This document shows positions 9,273-19,640 of a DNA stretch of 64,000 nucleotides, one piece after another (the stretch's first letter is position 1; every line of letters begins with the position of its first letter). The position numbers were made by a program, and so were the translations under genes. The notes under the pieces were generated by a model. That model had not been told where the DNA came from, ran no database searches, and saw only the letters and a program-made list of their open reading frames with translations. The stretch is from Meridianimarinicoccus sp. MJW13 (lineage in GTDB: Bacteria; Pseudomonadota; Alphaproteobacteria; Rhodobacterales; Rhodobacteraceae): assembly GCF_014901205.1 (NCBI RefSeq), contig NZ_JACNMU010000003.1, positions 434,001 to 498,000 of the forward strand. Reading direction: 5' to 3'.

Positions 9273-9806
9273 CGGGAACTTTCCTTGGACAATGGGCACG
9301 GATCAGCCGCGCCACTCAACTTCCGGGTGCACCATAGGGGCCATGCAACGACTTCGTAAACGTGCATTTGAGAATGTGTTTTTTTATGCGCTGCTGGCGC
9401 GGTTGGTGTAACAAAATTGCGCCGGCAGAATCATGCGGCGCAACTAACCTTTGGTCGGTGGCAGGGACACAGCCGAGGGGCGCTTCAAGAGCGCTGGAGA
9501 TTTTGTCACACCACACTGCGGATGACGTGTATTACAGATTCCTGTTTACTGACAAAGCGCAGCAGACCAGGCGCGGATGAGCAACAGCCCGAAATCCTTG
9601 CGAAATTCCTAACCGTGAACGACTTTACAGCTTTTCGATGAAAGCGGCAAAATCGTTGACAAAAAAGGCGTGGAATATCTACGACTTATTCTGGTGTTTT
9701 CAAAAGGTGATAAAGTGACTACGGGACAGTCGGGACATGTGCTCATATCCGCATTGCTGCGGGCGCATGACTGAACGCGAAGTTGACTAATGACGGGAGG
9801 ACTCCG
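9273..9806. other. 534-base gene-free region upstream of acs
   Basis: No convincing gene. The stretch from about 9340 to 9780 is visibly AT-richer than its surroundings and must hold the promoters of acs and of the divergent secreted protein. The best sigma-70-like -35 element for acs is TTGACA at 9656-9661, followed by a weak AT-rich -10 candidate around 9674-9681 at shorter than ideal spacing. Small reading frames here have no ribosome-binding site or recognisable composition. Confidence 0.5.
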
Positions 9807-11771
9807 ATGACGGGTCAAAGTCAGGACACAGCAACCTATCCGCCGAGCGCTGAGATCGCCGCAAACGCGCATATTGATGCCGAAACCTACAATCGTATGT
9901 ACGCGGAGTCGATTTCCGACCCCGAGGTCTTCTGGGGCGAGCACGGCAAGCAGCTGGACTGGATCAAGCCGTATACCAAGGTCAAGGACACAACCTTTGA
10001 CTTCGGCAAGGTGTCTATCAAGTGGTTCGAGGACGGCACCCTGAACGTCTGCGCCAACTGCGTGGATCGCCACCTTGAAACCCGTGGTGACCAGACCGCC
10101 ATCATCTTCGAACCCGACAACCCCGAAGAGCCGGCGCAGCACATCACCTACAAGGCGCTGCACACCGAAGTCTGCAAGATGGCCAACATCCTTGAGGGCC
10201 TTGGCGTCCGCAAGGGCGATCGCGTCGTCCTGTATCTGCCGATGATCCCGGAAGCCGCTTACGCCATGCTGGCCTGCGCCCGGATCGGGGCCATCCACTC
10301 GATCGTTTTCGCCGGCTTCTCGCCGGATGCCCTGGCCGCCCGTGTGAACGGCGCCGACGCCAAGGTCGTGATCACCGCCGACTACGCCCCGCGCGGCGGT
10401 CGCCAGACCCCGCTGAAGTCGAACGCCGACGCCGCCCTGCTGCACTGCAAGGACACGGTCAAATGCCTGGTGGTCAAGCGCACCGGTGGCCAGACAACCT
10501 GGGTTGATGGCCGCGACTACGACTATTCGGAACTGCACGCCGAAGCCGACGATCACAGCCGTGCCGTGGAAGTGAACGCCGAAGATCCGCTGTTCGTGCT
10601 TTACACATCTGGCTCGACCGGCCAGCCCAAGGGCGTCGTGCACAGCTCGGGCGGCTACCTTCTGTATGCCGCCATGACCCACAAGTACGTCTTCGACTAC
10701 AAGGAAGGCGATGTCTTCTGGTGCACCGCGGATGTGGGCTGGGTCACCGGCCACAGCTACATCGTCTACGGCCCGCTCGCCAATGGCGCCACCACGGTGA
10801 TGTTCGAAGGCGTGCCGACCTACCCCGACGCCTCGCGCTTCTGGGAAGTCTGCGAAAAGCACAAGGTCAACCAGTTCTACACCGCGCCGACCGCCATCCG
10901 CGCGCTGATGGGCAAGGGCACCGAGTTCGTCGAGAAAGCCGACCTTTCCAGCCTGCGCATCCTCGGCACCGTGGGCGAGCCGATCAACCCGGAAGCCTGG
11001 AACTGGTACAACGACAATGTCGGCAAGGGCAAATGCCCGATCGTCGACACCTGGTGGCAGACCGAAACCGGCGGTCACCTGCTGACCCCGTTGCCCGGCG
11101 CCCATGCGCTGAAGCCCGGATCGGCCATGAAGCCCTTCTTCGGCGTCGAGCCGGTGGTTCTGGACCCGCAGTCGGGCGAGGAAATCCACGAAAGCCCGGC
11201 CGAAGGCGTGCTTTGCATCAAGGCCAGCTGGCCCGGTCAGATGCGCACCGTCTATGGCGATCACGAACGTTTCGAGAAGACCTATTTCTCGGACTACAAG
11301 GGCTACTACTTCACCGGTGACGGCTGCCGCCGCGATGCCGATGGCGACTATTGGATCACCGGCCGCGTCGATGACGTGATCAACGTGTCCGGTCACCGCA
11401 TGGGCACCGCCGAGGTCGAAAGCGCGCTGGTGGCACATGCCAAGGTCGCCGAGGCCGCCGTGGTGGGCTATCCGCACGACATCAAGGGCCAGGGCATCTA
11501 CTGCTATGTCACCCTGATGAACGGCGTCGAGCCGACCGAGGAGCTGCGCAAGGAACTGCGCACCTGGGTCCGCACCGAGATCGGCCCGATCGCCGCACCG
11601 GATCTGATCCAGTGGGCGCCCGGCCTGCCCAAGACCCGTTCGGGCAAGATCATGCGCCGCATCCTGCGCAAGATCGCGGAAGACGATTTCGGGGCGCTCG
11701 GCGATACTTCGACGCTGGCCGAACCGGCGGTGGTCGATGATCTCATCGAAAACCGCATGAACAAAAAATAA
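9807..11771 (+). CDS. acs: Acetyl-CoA synthetase
   Basis: 654 residues, the expected length for AMP-forming acetate:CoA ligase. It turns acetate, ATP and CoA into acetyl-CoA, AMP and pyrophosphate. Signature motifs: the phosphate loop [22 protein letters not shown] in the adenylate site, [20 protein letters not shown] with the hinge Asp, [10 protein letters not shown], and the C-terminal [13 protein letters not shown] whose lysine (residue 614) is catalytic and the usual acetylation control site. GGGAGG six bases before ATG 9807 fixes the start. adk begins three bases after its stop, so the AMP produced could be recycled at once. Confidence 0.97.
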
Positions 11772-11774
11772 GTC

Positions 11775-12464
11775 ATGGACGGAGCAGACATCGTGACCAC
11801 GACACCCGCAGTCCTCATCCTTCTCGGCCCTCCGGGCGCCGGGAAGGGCACCCAGGCCCGCATGCTGGAAGAGAAATTCGGCCTCGTCCAGCTGTCCACC
11901 GGCGATCTGCTGCGCGCGGCGGTTGCCGCGGGCACCGATGCCGGCAAGACCGCCAAGGCGGTGATGGAGGCGGGCAAGCTCGTCTCCGACGAGATCGTTC
12001 TGGCCATCCTGAAGGATCGCCTGGCCGAGGATGACACCCAGAAGGGTGTCATTCTGGACGGCTTCCCCCGCACCACCGGCCAGGCCGAAAGCTTGGACGC
12101 GCTGCTGGAAGAAACCGGACAGAAGATCAACGCCGCGATCTCGCTGGACGTTGAGGACGAAGCCATGGTCGAGCGGGTTTCGGGCCGCTACACCTGCGCC
12201 AAATGTGGCGAAGGCTACCATGACAGCTTCAAGCAGCCCGCCGTTGACGGGACCTGCGACAAATGCGGAGGCACGGAGTTCAAGCGCCGGGCCGACGACA
12301 ATGCCGAAACCGTGCGGTCCAGGCTTGAAGCCTACCACGCGCAAACGGCGCCGCTGATCGACTACTACGACGCCAAGGGTGTCCTGCAACGCGTTGACGC
12401 CATGGGCGACATCAGCGCGATCGCGCAGGGCCTCGGTCGCATCGTGGAAGCCGCTTCGGCATAA
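11775..12464 (+). CDS. adk: Adenylate kinase (zinc-lid type)
   Basis: 229 residues. The P-loop GPPGAGKGT, LSTGDLLRA, ILDGFPRT and the LID are all present, and the LID carries two CXXC pairs (CAKCGEGYH and CDKCGG) that normally hold a structural metal, as in other alphaproteobacterial enzymes. It interconverts ATP plus AMP and two ADP. ATG 11775 gives a short extra N-terminus; GTG 11793 is an alternative start. Adk is classically in a ribosomal-protein operon, so a copy directly behind acs suggests a dedicated role in removing Acs-made AMP. Whether another copy exists elsewhere cannot be seen here. Confidence 0.95.
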   Translation: MDGADIVTTTPAVLILLGPPGAGKGTQARMLEEKFGLVQLSTGDLLRAAVAAGTDAGKTAKAVMEAGKLVSDEIVLAILKDRLAEDDTQKGVILDGFPRTTGQAESLDALLEETGQKINAAISLDVEDEAMVERVSGRYTCAKCGEGYHDSFKQPAVDGTCDKCGGTEFKRRADDNAETVRSRLEAYHAQTAPLIDYYDAKGVLQRVDAMGDISAIAQGLGRIVEAASA

Positions 12465-12470
12465 GGGAGA

Positions 12471-12507
12471 GCCGGCTCCCCCCGGTGGGACTTGGGGGGG
12501 GGTCGGC
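12471..12507 (+). other. Long GC hairpin between adk and the symporter genes
   Basis: A 13-base-pair stem (12471-12483 with 12495-12507, including two G-T pairs) containing a C6/G8 tract and an 11-base loop, starting six bases after the adk stop. There is no T-run, so it could be a partial terminator, a 3' end stabiliser for acs-adk mRNA, or a processing site separating acs-adk from the transporter genes. Confidence 0.5.
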
Positions 12508-12588
12508 AGAGCAACCGCTTTCATCATTGGATTTTGGAACGCACTGTTCCGGGCTCCGGGAAAGCATGTCTTAAAGGGAGAGACCGCT

Positions 12589-12846
12589 ATGGCGGATAAT
12601 TCGTCCAACAACGCCTACTGGCAAGCGAACCTGAATATCATCAAGGTTTGCCTCGCCATTTGGGCCCTCGTTTCCTTCGGGTTCGGCATCCTGCTGCGCC
12701 CGCTCCTCAAGGGTATTCCGGTGGGTGGCACCGACCTGGGCTTCTGGTTCGCCCAGCAGGGCTCCATCCTGGTATTTCTTGCCATCATTTTCTTCTACGC
12801 ATGGCGCGTAAACAAGCTCGACGCAGAGCACGGCGTCGAAGAGTAA
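12589..12846 (+). CDS. Sodium:solute symporter small subunit (DUF4212)
   Basis: 85 residues with two membrane helices (about 17-37 and 55-77), matching the DUF4212/VC_2705-type small subunit: YWQANLNIIKVCLAIWALVSF, then FGFGILLRPLL, then LGFWFAQQGSI. This small protein always accompanies a particular SLC5-like symporter, encoded 13 bases downstream here. AAGGGAG lies eight bases before the ATG. It is probably needed for assembly or activity of the transporter. Confidence 0.9.
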   Translation: MADNSSNNAYWQANLNIIKVCLAIWALVSFGFGILLRPLLKGIPVGGTDLGFWFAQQGSILVFLAIIFFYAWRVNKLDAEHGVEE

Positions 12847-12859
12847 GGGACAGGGAACG

Positions 12860-14644
12860 ATGGATCAGTTTACCCTCAACTTGCTGGTGGTCGGCGCGAC
12901 GTTCGCGCTCTACATCGGCATTGCAATCTGGGCCCGTGCGGGCTCGACCTCGGAATTCTATGCAGCCGGTCGCGGTGTGCACCCGGTTGTCAACGGGATG
13001 GCCACAGGCGCTGACTGGATGTCTGCCGCTTCGTTCATCTCGATGGCCGGCCTGATCGCCTTTGGCGGCTATGCAACCTCGTCCTACCTGATGGGCTGGA
13101 CCGGTGGTTACGTGCTTCTGGCCCTGCTGCTCGCGCCCTACCTGCGCAAGTTCGGCAAGTTCACCGTGCCGGAATTCATTGGCGACCGTTTCTACAGCCC
13201 GACCGCGCGCCTGGTGGCCGTGGTCTGCCTGATCACTGCCTCGATCACCTATGTGATCGGTCAGATGACCGGTGTTGGCGTTGCCTTCTCGCGCTTCCTG
13301 GAACTGGACAACACCACCGGCCTGCTGATCGGCGCCGCCATCGTGTTTGCCTACGCCGTTCTCGGCGGCATGAAGGGCGTCACCTACACGCAGGTGGCTC
13401 AGTACTGCGTTCTGATCACCGCCTACACCATCCCGGCGGTCTTCATCTCGCTGCAGCTGACCGGCCACGCCATCCCCGGCATCGGCCTGTTCGGCAACGA
13501 CGTCGCCTCGGGCGAGCCGCTGCTGACGCGCCTGAACCAGGTGGTCACCGATCTGGGCTTTGCGGACTACACCGCGCAGGACGGCACGCCGTCTTCGGTC
13601 ATCAACATGGTGCTCTTCACCTTCTCGCTGATGATCGGTACCGCGGGTCTGCCCCACGTCATCATCCGCTTCTTCACCGTTCCCCGCGTGGCTGACGCCC
13701 GCTGGTCGGCAGGCTGGGCCCTGGTCTTCATCGCCCTGCTGTACCTGACGGCTCCGGCTGTTGGCGCCATGGCACGTCTGAACCTGGTCGACACCATCTA
13801 TCCGAACGGTGTTGCCGAAGAGCCGATCGAATACGCAAGCCGTCCCGACTGGATGACCAACTGGGAAAAGACCGGCCTGCTGAAGTTCGAAGACAAGAAC
13901 GGTGACGGCCGCATCCAGTGGTACAACGACGCCAACTCCACCTTCGACGCCGATGTGGCCACGCCGCGCGGTTGGAAAGGCTCCGAGCTGACGGTGAACC
14001 GGGACATCATCGTTCTGGCCAACCCTGAAATCGCACAGCTGCCCGGTTGGGTTCTGGCAATCGTCGCCGCCGGTGGTCTTGCCGCCGCGCTGTCGACCGC
14101 TGCCGGCCTGCTGCTCGCGATCTCGTCCTCGGTGTCGCACGACCTGATCAAGGGTCAGCTGAACCCCGGCATCTCGGAAAAAGGCGAACTGCTCTGGGCG
14201 CGTATCTCGATGGCGGTTGCCATTGGTGTCGCAACCTACCTCGGCCTCAACCCTCCGGGCTTCGCTGCTCAAACCGTGGCTCTTGCCTTCGGTCTGGCTG
14301 CCGCGTCGATCTTCCCGGCGCTGATGATGGGCATCTTCGTGAAGCGCATCAACAACAAGGGTGCTGTTGCCGGCATGGTGTCGGGTCTGCTGTTCACGCT
14401 GGTCTACATCTTCATGCACAAGGGCTGGTTCTTCATCGCAGGGACCAACCAGTTCCCTGACACCATCCAGGGGTCGCTGCTGGGCATCCAGTCCACCGCG
14501 ATCGGTTCGATCGGTGCCCTGGTGAACTTCGTGGTCGCCTACTTCGTGTCGAACGCCACGGAAGAGCCGCCGCAGGAGATCCAGGATCTGGTGGAAAGCA
14601 TCCGCGTCCCGAAAGGTGCCGGCGCTGCTGCCATCGACCACTGA
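12860..14644 (+). CDS. Sodium/cation:solute symporter, probable acetate permease (VC_2705-type large subunit)
   Basis: 594 residues with about 13 membrane helices, SLC5 family. Features include FYAAGRGVHPVVNGMATGADWMSAASF at the N-terminus, GLPHVIIRFFTVP, and AALSTAAGLLLAISSSVSHDL, the serine-rich segment of the sodium site. It differs from E. coli ActP by a hydrophilic insertion (about residues 320-390) containing an EF-hand-like loop DKNGDGRIQWYND (345-357), probably outside the membrane. Given acs and adk upstream, acetate or another short carboxylate is the likely substrate. Translation follows a GGGACAGGG-like site. Confidence 0.9.
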   Translation: MDQFTLNLLVVGATFALYIGIAIWARAGSTSEFYAAGRGVHPVVNGMATGADWMSAASFISMAGLIAFGGYATSSYLMGWTGGYVLLALLLAPYLRKFGKFTVPEFIGDRFYSPTARLVAVVCLITASITYVIGQMTGVGVAFSRFLELDNTTGLLIGAAIVFAYAVLGGMKGVTYTQVAQYCVLITAYTIPAVFISLQLTGHAIPGIGLFGNDVASGEPLLTRLNQVVTDLGFADYTAQDGTPSSVINMVLFTFSLMIGTAGLPHVIIRFFTVPRVADARWSAGWALVFIALLYLTAPAVGAMARLNLVDTIYPNGVAEEPIEYASRPDWMTNWEKTGLLKFEDKNGDGRIQWYNDANSTFDADVATPRGWKGSELTVNRDIIVLANPEIAQLPGWVLAIVAAGGLAAALSTAAGLLLAISSSVSHDLIKGQLNPGISEKGELLWARISMAVAIGVATYLGLNPPGFAAQTVALAFGLAAASIFPALMMGIFVKRINNKGAVAGMVSGLLFTLVYIFMHKGWFFIAGTNQFPDTIQGSLLGIQSTAIGSIGALVNFVVAYFVSNATEEPPQEIQDLVESIRVPKGAGAAAIDH

Positions 14645-14664
14645 TCTGGTCCTGAAAAGATCCG

Positions 14665-14687
14665 CCGGGGCGCCCTTCGCGCCCCGG
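14665..14687 (+). terminator. GC hairpin after the symporter gene
   Basis: A 9-base-pair perfect stem CCGGGGCGC/GCGCCCCGG with a 5-base loop, 20 bases after the stop. No T-run follows, so complete termination is unlikely and read-through into the DUF294 gene is plausible. Confidence 0.45.
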
Positions 14688-14748
14688 CCGCAGCCATCGC
14701 TGGGCGCGGCACAGGCTGCGCCCGGCTTCTTCCCCAAAGGAGCTTTCG

Positions 14749-16575
14749 ATGGAAGTCACCACCGAAGCAGTGCGCACGTTTCTTTCCGCCCTGCACCCCT
14801 ATGACGCCCTCCCCCCCGAAGACCTGAACCGGGTTGCCGACGCCTTCACCGTCGACGCGCGCGCCAAGGGCGATACGATCTATTCCATCGGCGACAAGCT
14901 CCCGGGCCTCTATGTCATCCTAGACGGCTCGGTCGAGATCCACGATACCCAGGGCGGCCAGCTTTCGCTGCTGGGTCCGCGCAACAGTTTCGGCGAACGC
15001 GGCCTGTTCCGGGACGGCACCGCCGTCACCAACGCCCTCGCCGCCACCGATGTTTCCCTGCTGATCCTGCCGGTGACCGAGGTCACCCGCCTGCTGGACA
15101 CGCAGCCCGCCTTTGCAAGATTCTTCGATCGCGGCACCTCGGGCGACAAGCCCAACACCCTGTCGCTGGCCACCACGCAGGTGTCGAACCTGCTGACCGG
15201 TCCGCCCGTGTCGTGCCCGCCTACGACCTCGATCCGCGAGGCCGCGCGGCAGATGCGTGAAAAGAACATCTCAAGCCTGGCCGTGGTCGAGGATGGCGTC
15301 CTGAAGGGCATCGTCACCACCACCGACCTGTCGCATCGGGTCGTGGCCGAAGGCATCGATTCCGCGCTGGATGTGTCGCGGATCATGACACCGCAGCCGA
15401 TCACCCTGCCCCCAGACGCGCTGGCCTCGGACGTGCTGCACGTGATGCACGAACGCCATATCGGTCATCTGCCCATTGCCGAGGGCGACAAGATCCTCGG
15501 CATGGTCACCCAGACCGACCTGACCCGCCTGCAGGCGGTCACCTCGGCGCAATTCGTTTCGGACATCGCCTATGGGCGCACCCCGGCCGCGCTGGCCAAG
15601 GTCACCAAGCAGATCCCGCAGTTGCTGGTGCAACTGGTGGGGTCCGGCAACCCGCACGAGGTCGTCACCCGGCTTATCACCGACATCGCCGATGCCGTCA
15701 CCCGCCGCCTGCTGACGCTGGCCGAAGCCAAGTTCGGCCCGCCCCCGGTGCCCTATTGCTGGCTTGCCTGTGGCAGCCAGGGCCGCCGCGAACAGACCGG
15801 CGTGTCGGATCAGGACAACTGCCTGTTTCTCGACGATCGGGTCACCGCCGAGGACATGCCCTATTTCGAGAAGCTGGCGAAATTCGTCTGTGACGGGCTG
15901 AACACCTGCGGCTATGTCTATTGCCCCGGCGACATGATGGCGACGGCGACCCGCTGGCGTCAGCCGGTGCGGGTCTGGCGCAGCTATTTCGAAGGCTGGA
16001 TCGTCAAGCCCAGCCCCGAGGCGCAGATGCTGGCCTCGGTGATGTTCGACCTGCGGGTGATCGGCGGCGACGCCAGCCTGTTCGACGGGCTTCAGCGCGA
16101 GGTTCTGGCCAAGGCCTCGGCCAATTCGATCTTCGTGTCGCACATGATCGCGAACTCGCTCAAGCACACGCCGCCGCTGGGACTGCTGCGCGGCTTTGCC
16201 ACCATCCGCTCGGGCGAGCACAAGAACCGCATCGACCTCAAGCACAACGGCGTTGTGCCGATCGTCGACCTTGCCCGGATCTATGCGATCCAGGGCGAAT
16301 TGACCGCCGCCAACACCCGCGCCCGCCTGGTCGAGGCCGAGGCCAAGGGCGTGCTGTCGAAGTCCGGCGGCAGCGACCTGATGGATGCCTATGACCTGAT
16401 CGCCCAGACCCGTCTGGACCATCAGGCCAAGCTGGTGCGCCACGGCGCGGCCCCTGACAACTTTCTTTCACCGACAGAATTGTCCGACTTTGAGCGAAGT
16501 CATCTTCGCGACGCTTTCGTCGTGGTAAAGACGCTGCAATCGGCTCTTGGACATGGACGCGGCATGATCGGTTAA
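14749..16575 (+). CDS. cNMP-binding/CBS/DUF294 nucleotidyltransferase-like protein
   Basis: 608 residues, cytosolic. Domains in order: a cyclic-nucleotide-binding beta barrel (about 10-125, with LYVILDGSVEIHD and FGERGLF), a CBS pair (about 155-265, ending GIVTTTDLSHRV and GMVTQTDLTR), a DUF294 nucleotidyltransferase-like domain with GSQGRREQTGVSDQD (about 340-354) and a C-terminal helical DUF294_C region. The layout resembles the GlnD/KNTase superfamily linked to nucleotide-sensing CBS domains, so it may modify a partner in response to adenine nucleotides. AAGGAG precedes the ATG. This family commonly neighbours DUF4212/symporter genes. Biochemical target unknown. Confidence 0.9.
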   Translation: MEVTTEAVRTFLSALHPYDALPPEDLNRVADAFTVDARAKGDTIYSIGDKLPGLYVILDGSVEIHDTQGGQLSLLGPRNSFGERGLFRDGTAVTNALAATDVSLLILPVTEVTRLLDTQPAFARFFDRGTSGDKPNTLSLATTQVSNLLTGPPVSCPPTTSIREAARQMREKNISSLAVVEDGVLKGIVTTTDLSHRVVAEGIDSALDVSRIMTPQPITLPPDALASDVLHVMHERHIGHLPIAEGDKILGMVTQTDLTRLQAVTSAQFVSDIAYGRTPAALAKVTKQIPQLLVQLVGSGNPHEVVTRLITDIADAVTRRLLTLAEAKFGPPPVPYCWLACGSQGRREQTGVSDQDNCLFLDDRVTAEDMPYFEKLAKFVCDGLNTCGYVYCPGDMMATATRWRQPVRVWRSYFEGWIVKPSPEAQMLASVMFDLRVIGGDASLFDGLQREVLAKASANSIFVSHMIANSLKHTPPLGLLRGFATIRSGEHKNRIDLKHNGVVPIVDLARIYAIQGELTAANTRARLVEAEAKGVLSKSGGSDLMDAYDLIAQTRLDHQAKLVRHGAAPDNFLSPTELSDFERSHLRDAFVVVKTLQSALGHGRGMIG

Positions 16576-16614
16576 CACTTCGGTCCGCCGCTGCGGACCA
16601 CCCTGGGAGGATAC

Positions 16615-17145
16615 ATGTTTCTAGAACTCTTCGCGACGTTCGCGATCGGCCTTGGCGCGGCAGGGGTGATCCTGCTGGTGAATCTGCTCGTCGGCAAACG
16701 GCTGCCGCGCTGGTTTCTGCCGGCCGGGGCGGGTCTGGCCATGATCGGGTTTTCGGTCTGGTCGGAATACACCTGGTACGACCGCACCACGACCACCCTG
16801 CCCGAAGAGATCGTCGTCGCCTGGGCGCATGAAACCTCTGCGTTCTACAAGCCCTGGACCTATGTCTCGCCGCAGGTGGATCGCTTCGTTGCCGTGGATC
16901 TGGAAACCATCCGCACCAACGACGACCTGCCCGGCCAACGCATGGTTGACCTGTTTTTCTTCGGACGCTGGGCGCCGGTCCGGCAGATCCGGGTTGTCAT
17001 CGACTGCGCCAACAACCGCCGTGCCGACCTCATGGAGGGGGTCGCCATGGATGCCAACGGCAATGTGGAGGAAAGCGCGTGGATTCCGCTGGAACCGGAA
17101 GATCCGGTTCTGCTCAAGACCTGTGAGGAGGAGGTATTGGGATGA
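16615..17145 (+). CDS. Conserved membrane protein of unknown function
   Basis: 176 residues. Two N-terminal membrane helices (about 5-25 and 34-50) are followed by a soluble part of about 125 residues with two cysteines (VVIDCANN, LLKTCEEE). I do not recognise a family. GGGAGG precedes the ATG. Its last bases overlap the next gene (ATGA), so it is translationally coupled to the receiver-like protein and, through it, to the sensor-exonuclease; a role in that signalling unit is a reasonable guess. Confidence 0.7.
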   Translation: MFLELFATFAIGLGAAGVILLVNLLVGKRLPRWFLPAGAGLAMIGFSVWSEYTWYDRTTTTLPEEIVVAWAHETSAFYKPWTYVSPQVDRFVAVDLETIRTNDDLPGQRMVDLFFFGRWAPVRQIRVVIDCANNRRADLMEGVAMDANGNVEESAWIPLEPEDPVLLKTCEEEVLG

Positions 17146-17537
17146 CAAGGACATTGACATGCAATGGACACGAGGCCCGCGTGGCCCTGCTGGGGCTGGA
17201 TGACACGCTGGGCGATGCCATCGCGCAAAGCCTCAGCCGCGACGGCTGCGCCATGACCCGCGCCCCCTGCGCCACCAGCGCTGTGCCAAGGCTGTGCGAA
17301 TGCTGCCCCGATGTGATCGTGCTGGAAACCCGGACCAGCGACATGTCGGCCTTCGGCGTCGCACAGGCGATCCGGCAAAACCGCGATCTGGATCATGCCC
17401 GCCTGCTGGTGCTGCAGAATTCGGGCCGCGCCATCGACAAGCGCCGGGCCCGTGCCATGGGTGCCGACGGCTTCCTGTCCATGCCCTTCCCCATGTCGTC
17501 GCTGCGCATCGAGGTCGGACGGCTGCTGGAGGCCTGA
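17142..17537 (+). CDS. Degenerate response-regulator receiver protein
   Basis: 131 residues, a single receiver-like domain without an output domain. The fold pattern is kept: VALLGLDDTLGDAIAQSL (acidic pair), CCPDVIVLETRTSDMSAFG (strand 3), ARLLVLQNS (strand 4) and GADGFLSMPF (strand 5). The phospho-accepting Asp at the end of strand 3 appears to be Glu (VLET), and the conserved Lys before Pro-Phe is Met. It therefore probably cannot be phosphorylated normally and may be locked in an active-like state. It starts inside the previous stop (ATGA) and ends three bases before the sensor-exonuclease gene. Confidence 0.75.
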   Translation: MTRTLTCNGHEARVALLGLDDTLGDAIAQSLSRDGCAMTRAPCATSAVPRLCECCPDVIVLETRTSDMSAFGVAQAIRQNRDLDHARLLVLQNSGRAIDKRRARAMGADGFLSMPFPMSSLRIEVGRLLEA

Positions 17538-17540
17538 CCG

Positions 17541-19640
17541 ATGTTCCACTCCCTGTCGCTACGGCTGAGAATATTCCTGTTCTTCGCCTTCCTGGGCTGC
17601 GGATCACTGGCCATTCTGGCCGGCAGCCTCGCCTTCGCCGCCTCCCGCATGGATCCGGCGCACCCTATGGCCGCCCTGACCACCGGCGGCATCATGGCCG
17701 GGTTCCTGACCGCCGCCCTTGTCGCCGGAATCTGGTACCTGTTTGACGAAAACGTCGCCCGCGCCATCGAACGTCTGTCGGCCGAACTGCGCGCCCGCGC
17801 CCATGCGGATATCTCCCGCGATCTGGACGCCGCACCGGCCAAATACCTGGGCGATCTGGCCCCCGCCGCCGGCGAATTGACCAGGACCCTGTCCTCGGCC
17901 CGCACCGAGCTTGAGGAAACCGTGGCCGAGCAGACCGGCCGGCTGAAGGAACAGACCGCGCAGCTGACCGCGCTGCTGTCGGATGTGGACATGGGGCTGA
18001 TCCTGTGTTCCCCCAGCCACCAGATCGTGTTCTACAACCCGACTTCGGTGGATCTTCTGCAAGACACCGGGCGGCCCCGGCTGGACCGGATGATCTTCGA
18101 CCTGCTGCACGAACGTCCGATCCGGCGCACCTATGAAACACTGCTGAAGGCCGAACGCGGCGAACGGCACCGGGATGTGCTGGTCTCGACCGTTGGCTGT
18201 GGCCGCACCATCGCGGCGCATATGCGGCTGGTCAGCGGGGCGCTGGGAATGGGGGAAAAGCCCGGCTATGTGCTGACCCTGCGCGACGTGTCCAAGGACA
18301 TGAAGCTGCACAGCGAACGTGAACGTCTGCTGACCGAAACCATCGACTCGGTGCGCCTGCCCGCCGCGCGCCTGCAGGCGGTGCTGGACCTGATCAACGA
18401 TCCGGTCGGCGGTTTTGCCGATCACGGCGAGGCGCTGAAAGCCGAAGCCGCAGGCCTGGTCGAGGTCGTCAACACGCTGGCCGAACGCCACGATGCCAAT
18501 CAGGACACCTGGTGGCCGATGCAGGACGTGCGTGCCTCGCAGATGATCGACGCGATCCGCGGCCATCTTGGCCCCGACGCGCTGCCGCTGGACGCGCCCA
18601 GCCCCCACATCAGCCTGCGTTGCGACGGCCTGGCCCTGTCCGGCCTTCTGGCCTCGCTGATCGAAAAGATCACCGAACTGCATCTGGCAAAGGCGCTGTC
18701 GCTGACCGTCGAGATGGAGGGCCCCGGCGCCTTGATCTCGCTGCATTGGGATGGCGACGCGCTGCCGATCCCGGCGCTGCGCGAGGTTCTGGATGCGCCG
18801 CTGGAAGACGGTCCCTTCGAGATCACCGGGCAGGAGATCCTGGACCACCACAACGCCGACATCTGGCCCGAAACCACGGACACGGGGCAAGCCGCTTTGG
18901 TGCTGCCCATCGCCGAGGCGCGCGCGGTCGAGGCGCTGGGATCGCTGAAACCCGGCTACGGGCGGCCCACGGTCTTTGACTTCGATCTGCTGACCCAGGT
19001 CCGCGACGGCGCGGTGACCGGCAAGAAGCTGTCGGAACTGACCTATGTGGTCTTTGACACCGAAACCACCGGGCTCGATCCCAAGGGCGGCGACGAGATC
19101 GTGCAGATCGCCGCCGTGCGTCTGCTGAATGGCAAGCGCGTGGATGGCGAGGTGCTGGATCAGCTGGTCGATCCCAAACGTTCGATCCCGCCCAAATCCA
19201 CCGAGATTCACGGCATTACCGAGGACATGGTGCAAGGCATGCCGACCATCAAGGAGGCCGGGGCGCAGTTTCACCGCTTCTGCGAGAACGCCGTGCTGGT
19301 CGCCCACAACGCGCCCTTCGACATGGCCTTCTTCCATCGCCATGCCGACATCATCGGTGCGCCGTTCGATCACCCGGTGCTCGACACGGTGCTGCTGTCG
19401 GCGATCCTGTTCGGCCAGAACGAAGAGCACACGCTGGATGCGCTGGCCGACCGCTTCGGCGTGGTGATCCCGGCCGAGGTCCGCCACACCGCCTATGGCG
19501 ACACCGTGGCCACCGCCGAGGTGTTCCAGCGGATGCTGGCGATGCTGGAAGCGCAAGGCATGACCACCTATGACGACGTGGTCGCCGCGATGACCAAGAA
19601 CGCCCGCCTGATGCGCGAGATGAAGGCCCGCGTCGGCTGA
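17541..19640 (+). CDS. Membrane pseudo-kinase fused to a DnaQ-type 3'-5' exonuclease
   Basis: 699 residues. Two membrane helices (about 10-32 and 45-67) enclose a very short outside loop, followed by a HAMP-like linker and coiled coil (about 68-150), a PAS-like domain (about 150-250, DMGLILCSPSHQIVFYNP) and a region in the place of a histidine kinase core (about 260-480) that lacks a clear phospho-accepting His and nucleotide-binding boxes. The C-terminal 200 residues are a complete DEDDh exonuclease: FDTETTG (D506, E508), NAPFDMAFF (D594) and HTAYGD (H649, D654), like DNA polymerase III epsilon. Exonuclease catalysis looks intact; sensing input and substrate are unknown. Confidence 0.88.
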   Translation: MFHSLSLRLRIFLFFAFLGCGSLAILAGSLAFAASRMDPAHPMAALTTGGIMAGFLTAALVAGIWYLFDENVARAIERLSAELRARAHADISRDLDAAPAKYLGDLAPAAGELTRTLSSARTELEETVAEQTGRLKEQTAQLTALLSDVDMGLILCSPSHQIVFYNPTSVDLLQDTGRPRLDRMIFDLLHERPIRRTYETLLKAERGERHRDVLVSTVGCGRTIAAHMRLVSGALGMGEKPGYVLTLRDVSKDMKLHSERERLLTETIDSVRLPAARLQAVLDLINDPVGGFADHGEALKAEAAGLVEVVNTLAERHDANQDTWWPMQDVRASQMIDAIRGHLGPDALPLDAPSPHISLRCDGLALSGLLASLIEKITELHLAKALSLTVEMEGPGALISLHWDGDALPIPALREVLDAPLEDGPFEITGQEILDHHNADIWPETTDTGQAALVLPIAEARAVEALGSLKPGYGRPTVFDFDLLTQVRDGAVTGKKLSELTYVVFDTETTGLDPKGGDEIVQIAAVRLLNGKRVDGEVLDQLVDPKRSIPPKSTEIHGITEDMVQGMPTIKEAGAQFHRFCENAVLVAHNAPFDMAFFHRHADIIGAPFDHPVLDTVLLSAILFGQNEEHTLDALADRFGVVIPAEVRHTAYGDTVATAEVFQRMLAMLEAQGMTTYDDVVAAMTKNARLMREMKARVG

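Follow-up and report, generated by a model that had tools for sequence, protein, structure and literature searches.

A catalytically dead histidine-kinase transmitter as the putative input module of a membrane-anchored DEDDh exonuclease

The input module of a membrane-anchored DEDDh 3'-5' exonuclease encoded by Meridianimarinicoccus sp. MJW13 appears to be a catalytically dead histidine-kinase transmitter. The fusion gene lies in a window of 64,000 nucleotides, which is the whole stretch of DNA analyzed here (positions 434,001 to 498,000 of contig NZ_JACNMU010000003.1, assembly GCF_014901205.1) and to which all positions below refer. Alignments and structural models show a dead-kinase fold next to an intact predicted active site, a phylum-wide pairing with a receiver gene, and kinship with SLC5-type sensor kinases. 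A first-pass annotation, made from the sequence alone, had proposed a membrane-tethered nuclease under a sensor scaffold that is not a kinase, and this picture is well supported by the predicted fold, by the DEDDh site and by the location of the gene in an acetate/monocarboxylate operon. The genes from acs to the fusion form an operon-like row on the + strand (9783-19640), in which three bases separate the stop of the receiver from the start of the fusion:

9783..11771, + strand: acetate-CoA ligase (acs), start codon uncertain (TIGR02188, 1014.9 bits against a cut-off of 724.95)
11775..12464, + strand: adenylate kinase (family models), the only PF00406 match found in a scan of the window's genome
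12589..12846, + strand: symporter small subunit, DUF4212 / Na_symport_sm (Pfam, NCBIfam)
12860..14644, + strand: VC_2705-family sodium/solute symporter of the acetate type (TIGR03648, 830.1 bits against a cut-off of 320.75)
14749..16575, + strand: cNMP-binding / CBS / DUF294 nucleotidyltransferase-like protein with the GS-x(10)-DxD motif (Pfam)
16615..17145, + strand: 176-aa membrane protein, no family assigned, kept in 121 of 123 near loci
17142..17537, + strand: degenerate single-domain receiver (Pfam Response_reg, 28.1 bits, cut-off 30.2)
17541..19640, + strand: dead-kinase/exonuclease fusion protein, 699 aa (ORF list, Pfam, alignment, AF2)

The fusion protein was modeled at full length with AlphaFold using 17 related sequences. 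The resulting model is modest (pLDDT 73.2, pTM 0.35) and runs from two membrane helices through one long helix to the PAS-like domain, which is followed by a two-helix hairpin, an alpha/beta domain, a linker and the exonuclease. Together with the alignments and family models, it allowed the following parts to be assigned:

17559..17765, + strand: pair of predicted membrane helices (residues 7-35 and roughly 42-75), ends approximate (AF2, hydrophobicity)
17766..17981, + strand: long helix or coiled coil at the HAMP position, residues 76-147 (AF2)
17988..18290, + strand: PAS-like domain, residues 150-250 (AF2 fold; Pfam PAS below cut-off)
18291..18497, + strand: DHp-like helical hairpin, residues 251-319 (predicted fold, alignments)
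18345-18347, + strand: D269 in place of the phospho-accepting His (profile-profile alignment, 77-row alignment)
18354-18356, + strand: conserved R272 of the hairpin (alignments)
18522..18926, + strand: degenerate HATPase-like domain, residues 328-462, without N-box Asn, DxGxG and GxGLGL (fold, alignments)
18939..19025, + strand: low-confidence linker, residues 467-495, with a conserved R-P-x-x-[YF]-D-F motif (alignments, AF2)
19026..19556, + strand: DEDDh 3'-5' exonuclease domain, residues 496-672, with five of five catalytic residues (Pfam, alignments)

The two-helix membrane anchor of the first-pass annotation reappeared as predicted helices at residues 7-35 and at the start of 42-88, and its PAS-like domain as a predicted alpha/beta fold at residues 150-250, for which Pfam PAS scored 18.1 bits on the 699-aa protein against a cut-off of 22.6. 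Its HAMP-like linker was not confirmed: no HAMP model matched, and the long helix predicted there is of low confidence, with pLDDT under 50 at residues 88-115 and 139-149.

The exonuclease assignment was confirmed at the level of sequence. The catalytic residues D506, E508, D594, H649 and D654 lie at the positions first given for them, within a Pfam RNase_T match that covers residues 503-662 (120.5 bits, cut-off 24). All five are invariant in an alignment of 18 sequences, and in a larger set of 124 rows they are kept in 124, 124, 124, 123 and 123 rows, respectively, the sole exception being a gap. The site is therefore an intact DEDDh site of a predicted 3'-5' exonuclease. By sequence, the closest solved relatives are the DNA proofreading domains of PolC and epsilon (PolC exonuclease 2p1j, E 2.6e-28), and the broader TIGR00573 'dnaq' domain model was passed with 101.7 bits against 71.5. 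We rejected a plain PolC or epsilon exonuclease as the family assignment because the scores fall far under the NCBIfam family cut-offs, both for epsilon (TIGR01406, 112.5 against 222.7) and for PolC (NF001688, 152 against 873).

The region between the PAS-like domain and the linker had been described as kinase-like without a visible phospho-accepting His. Structure prediction of the isolated region (residues 253-466; pLDDT 84.3, pTM 0.65) bore this out by matching histidine-kinase-type cores. Among the best 50 Foldseek rows against the PDB, the titles of 44 name a kinase, a sensor protein, DivL or a phytochrome, and the other six belong to one hybrid response regulator, LvrB; the DivL structure 4q20 was matched at E 2.7e-9. 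The DHp and CA folds are thus present in the predicted model at modest TM-scores of only about 0.42-0.49 and an rmsd of 10-20 A, probably because the two halves are positioned differently. Profiles pointed in the same direction: with a profile of 25 dead-kinase rows, PDB kinases were matched at E 2e-10, DivL among them at 4.5e-8, and in a profile-profile comparison the dead-kinase profile aligned to the live kinases of fusion loci with 98.9% probability (E 2.9e-17). In that alignment, the His of the live kinases faces D269, and R272 and P274 stand in register.

The catalytic residues of a histidine kinase are missing from this fold. No HisKA, HATPase_c or other kinase model matched residues 253-466 in a Pfam scan at E up to 1, and the fusion protein was not picked up by a HATPase_c scan of the window's genome. 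Position 269 carries no His in any of the 77 long near rows (D in 42, E in 22, A in 6, others in the rest); D or E thus occupies it in 64 of the 77, and Tyr in none. In the distant set, 34 rows have a residue at the acceptor position, mostly Glu and never His. The N-box Asn and both G-boxes (DxGxG of G1 and GxGLGL of G2) are likewise missing in the aligned near and distant homologues, so that a search among them for homologues keeping the H- and N-boxes, which would have spoken against the first-pass annotation, came back empty. A kinase fold without phospho-His and an Arg at H+3, two features of a DivL-like receiver-binding pseudokinase, are both present. On these grounds, residues 253-466 are a predicted catalytically dead histidine-kinase transmitter.

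Within the window's family, 295 genomes were sampled and 134 of them carry the fusion gene at E 1e-60; a homologue search recovered long dead-kinase/exonuclease fusions in other families and classes of Pseudomonadota as well. The near set comprised the window and 123 loci, namely 100 of the 134 carrier genomes and 23 named loci, which overlap some of the fetched genomes; two of the named loci are from Rhizobiaceae (L025, L027). The carriers outside the fetched set were the window's own genome, G529 (long, at a contig edge) and 32 others, which are mostly C-terminal-only matches and probably short. Among the 123 near fusion sequences, 120 were distinct; the flanks downstream of unnamed loci extend only about 0.5 kb, and the fragments L015 and L023 were excluded. 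Depending on how long their dead-kinase region is, the 124 near loci were classed as long (78) or short (46). L113, with the fusion split over two ORFs, was counted as long with a receiver and left out of the trees and of the R272 count, and L185 (G855) belongs to neither the near nor the distant long counts. The short natural form has about 470 aa and lacks the dead-kinase region, keeping the membrane part, the PAS-like part and the exonuclease. At the level of sequence, these forms show that the putative dock is dispensable and that the predicted nuclease is the conserved core. Record names of the relatives read '3'-5' exonuclease' or 'exonuclease domain-containing protein'; the fusion gene is thus already annotated in records, yet without a description in the literature sampled.

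The long form is accompanied by a receiver gene. From BLAST hits at these loci we made a receiver profile, searched same-strand ORFs within 3 kb of the fusion with it, and found a receiver in 66 of the 78 long near loci (the window and L113 counted) versus none of the 46 short ones, which leaves 12 long near fusions without an adjacent receiver. A search of both strands over the whole fetched stretches revealed no receiver near the fusion in the short loci: any match was confined to one locus of 46 (L027, within a 567-aa frame some 7 kb away from where the fusion starts) and, among the receiver-less long loci, to one of 12 (L025, over 11 kb away). The long family fusion L185 has no receiver in its 1.5 kb flank. 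All 35 distant long loci have a receiver, which lies directly upstream in 34 of them and beyond the kinase, about 4.6 kb off, in the remaining one (L033, in L222). Four distant short-form loci (L031, L035, L041, L043) have no receiver within 1.5 kb; in two of these, L041 and L043, the wider stretches (L229, L230) contain a receiver and a kinase a little further away, so the receiver has another use there. A tree of the near loci contains four changes between long and short form, with two well-supported independent pairs of which the receiver follows in 0.9 on average. Because independent events are few, the raw counts overstate independence.

Distant receivers are canonical (Asp in 34 of 34, Lys in 34 of 34, Thr or Ser in 33 of 34), and the phospho-Asp is kept in 56 of 59 near rows. 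The receiver of the window has E62 for the phospho-Asp, Q92 for Thr and M114 for Lys, and that of its nearest relative (L003) also has Glu at the phospho-Asp position. As far as these residues tell, the window belongs to a lineage whose receiver has lost its phosphorylation residues. The first-pass annotation had called the fusion 'not a standard two-component output'. It overlooked the tie to two-component signaling through the receiver gene and, in distant loci, an intact kinase; the fusion is thus an indirect two-component output and not an alternative to one.

A link between receiver and dead transmitter is also visible at the residue level. In DivL, R553 lies three residues past the acceptor Tyr550 and is required for binding of DivK~P, which its replacement by Ala weakens (PMC4211667, available text). 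R272 occupies the same H+3 position and is the counterpart of R553. It is kept in 64 of the 65 long near fusions with a receiver versus two of the 12 without (Fisher p 6e-10, computed on related rows). W442 behaves alike (65/65 versus 0/12). On the tree, five pairs on supported branches compare receiver with R272, with 4.2 agreeing on average, none opposing and a median p of 0.125; with so few pairs, such independent-pair tests did not become significant. Where a receiver is present, the median length of the hairpin stretch is 73 residues (61-79), as against lengths of 23, 48, 48, 51, 53, 53, 54, 54, 55, 68, 71 and 76 where it is absent, i.e., 55 residues or less in nine of the 12 receiver-less long fusions. 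These alignments show that the receiver and the putative docking arginine were lost jointly.

Of 20 distant loci, 13 combine receiver and fusion with an intact kinase of 839-1041 aa (11 of the 18 whose fusion is long and both of those whose fusion is short); no kinase was found in the other seven stretches, several of which end at contig ends. All ten distant-locus kinases scanned with Pfam have HisKA and HATPase_c and none has a receiver domain. The sodium:solute symporter model passed E 1e-3 in four of the ten and its own cut-off in two, which makes the SLC5 label weak by Pfam. On plasmid p1 of Paracoccus methylovorus, the DUF294 gene, an 83-aa ORF, the kinase, the receiver and the fusion stand in one tight row. 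The genome of the window has a full-length relative on another contig (41-44% identity to the distant-locus kinases, intact boxes, no Pfam symporter match), which adjoins a gene for an ScfR-type regulator. When the dead-kinase profile was run against six genomes, the best non-self match was the SLC5-type kinase in all six, so the dead domain is probably a duplicate of it, that is, a paralogue of an SLC5-type sensor kinase. Co-occurrence of kinase and fusion was dropped as evidence since the SLC5-type kinase is found in 262 of 295 genomes of the family, fusion or not.

These observations suggest the following mechanism. An SLC5-type kinase would phosphorylate the single-domain receiver, which would in turn dock on the DHp hairpin of the dead transmitter in the way that DivK~P binds DivL. 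Docking would shift the dimer and the linker and thereby switch the exonuclease, in a direction that may be either on or off. Its substrate would most likely be 3' nucleotides of RNA, or tails added by the adjacent DUF294 nucleotidyltransferase. We regard the whole chain from SLC5-type kinase through receiver and dead-kinase dock to exonuclease as somewhat better than evenly probable.

Other explanations place the function elsewhere. Pseudomonas putida PP_0353 is a stand-alone exonuclease whose deletion impairs growth on pyruvate, not on acetate, and whose authors suggest mRNA degradation (PMC9927547, in the text available). Its linkage to DUF294 and an SSS symporter recurs at the window locus. 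By the same logic, the exonuclease of the fusion might trim carbon-metabolism mRNAs and the dead kinase might do no more than position it at the membrane. This would agree with the pyruvate phenotype and with the RNase_T-type DEDDh domain, but not with PolC and epsilon DNA proofreading domains being the nearest solved sequence relatives, and we consider it unlikely, if credible. The response to carbon state proposed in the first-pass annotation draws its only support from gene context and from the PP_0353 pyruvate phenotype (PMC9927547, same text). The signaling oligonucleotide that it proposed as substrate may be a further candidate.

The DUF294 gene offers a different role. Of the near loci, 122 of 123 have it, as do 15 of the 20 distant ones, and this conserved neighbor suggests nucleotide tails as the substrate. 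In the distant locus L243, exonuclease, two CBS domains and DUF294 form one natural chain (exonuclease-CBS-CBS-DUF294). Vibrio pelagius and a plasmid of P. aeruginosa each have a stand-alone exonuclease directly after DUF294, and the stand-alone exonuclease of L242, with the same neighbors, is 39.7% identical over 182 residues. The DUF294 protein could accordingly add nucleotides to a protein or RNA-tail target and the exonuclease remove them, in a cycle that controls the symporter and can be likened to GlnD-type cycles. Against this, Skermanella rosea has a DUF294-symporter cluster without an adjacent exonuclease among its annotated genes (an incomplete gene table). In addition, deletion of PP_0354 (DUF294) gave no phenotype in P. 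putida while deletion of PP_0353 did (PMC9927547, available portion), which disfavors an obligate cycle of nucleotidyltransferase and exonuclease. On balance, such a cycle is a doubtful reading. More doubtful still is a phylum-wide branch in which a symporter-like kinase would signal through the receiver to its dead paralogue and an exonuclease opposing DUF294, so that the addition and removal of nucleotides at the membrane would control nutrient uptake.

Alternatively, the dead transmitter may be only a dimerization spacer, with the PAS or membrane part as the input and the receiver serving another output of the operon. The short versions that dispense with the entire dead-kinase region, the twelve long versions without a neighboring receiver, and the combination of receiver and kinase with a short fusion in L229 and L230 are all compatible with such a spacer. 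However, a spacer leaves open why the receiver lies directly upstream at 34 of 35 distant loci and why docking Arg and hairpin are eroded in most receiver-less long versions while the exonuclease is not, and we deem it improbable. An active, if atypical, kinase is extremely improbable and was rejected: the predicted model retains the kinase fold, but the catalytic motifs are missing from the aligned homologues.

If the proposed chain is true, a nuclease joins the outputs of two-component signaling. The chain would also offer the pyruvate phenotype of PP_0353 a testable mechanism, and the DUF294/CBS proteins encoded in operons for acetate and pyruvate a testable function. Lineages that lack the receiver, or whose receiver lacks its phosphosite, provide natural controls for such docking.

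To our knowledge, only a handful of pseudokinases have been found to read a response regulator, with DivL as the model. DivL, which targets the kinase CckA, is not known to carry an enzyme. Like the fusion, DivL of Caulobacter has a kinase fold without phospho-His, PAS domains and the H+3 Arg, and it serves as the receptor of a single-domain receiver, DivK (PMC4211667, available text), which is the role proposed for the dead transmitter. The fusion differs from it in the attached nuclease, in an acceptor position that is mostly D or E and not Tyr, and in the loss of the ATP-site motifs. In the literature searched, which covers few subscription journals and some papers in part, we found no report of a dead kinase that reads a receiver and is joined to a nuclease. 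The components are each known, and their combination is DivL-type signaling with an effector that we did not find described for signaling of that kind in those sources.

With the exonuclease domains of DnaQ epsilon and PolC, the fusion shares fold and catalytic residues, but it has a membrane signaling architecture and scores far below their family cut-offs. PP_0353- and PA3232-type exonucleases also have DUF294 as a neighbor, joined in some species by an acetate-type symporter, and their metabolic context is the same (PMC9927547; PMC9765439); P. aeruginosa PA3232-PA3235 are up about 16-fold on propionate (PMC9765439, available text). In contrast to the fusion, no membrane, PAS or dead-kinase part and no receiver is reported for them in the available text of these papers, and the comparison with them is by description and gene context. 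The distant-locus kinases resemble the class of CrbS/CrbR and RpuS/RpuR, whose SLC5-like (SLC5/STAC) kinases sense acetate or pyruvate (PMC9100948, available text). On the one hand, these systems are built from hybrid kinases and LuxR-type regulators (PMC9100948, same text). On the other hand, the distant-locus kinases have HisKA and HATPase_c without a receiver domain (10/10), instead of the CrbS/CrbR-type hybrid architecture, and a single-domain receiver as partner. Finally, Osp of Rhodobacter sphaeroides is a degenerate single-domain receiver, like that of the window, which acts unphosphorylated on the transmitter of CckA (PMC9430884, available text). CckA, unlike the fusion, is an active kinase without a nuclease (PMC9430884, same text). 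By analogy, gating in the window's lineage is probably independent of phosphorylation, as is the action of Osp on CckA.

Across the complete genome of the window organism, PF00406 matched a single gene, that of the adenylate kinase at 11775-12464, which forms part of the acs operon; adk is present in 98 of the 123 loci of fusion relatives within and near the family. If this gene encodes the housekeeping enzyme, it would have been relocated to an acetate operon that produces AMP. The gene for the 176-aa membrane protein (16615-17145) occurs in 121 of these 123 loci and, in the window, lies between the DUF294 gene and the receiver and fusion genes; a Pfam search returned no match for this protein.

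At L113 (G406:C164), a locus of the long type with a receiver, two ORFs take the place of the single fusion gene, possibly owing to a frameshift or assembly error. In Mangrovicoccus ximenensis (L015:10001-10957) a fragment of the fusion covers residues 382-699, and no other operon genes were found across the 21 kb locus.

At L220:15035-19022, additional two-component ORFs adjoin a distant fusion: an ORF with two receiver-domain matches, one more receiver, and an ORF that resembles a second kinase. At L241:3322-8195, the intact SLC5-type kinase of the window's genome is adjoined by a ScfR-type (short-chain fatty acyl-CoA) HTH regulator, and none of the eight ORFs scanned was a receiver.

Skermanella rosea (L246) carries a DUF4212-symporter-DUF294 cluster with no exonuclease among the annotated genes beside it. 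At L243:5500-7617 (minus strand), one natural chain combines exonuclease-CBS-CBS-DUF294, close to an SSS symporter.
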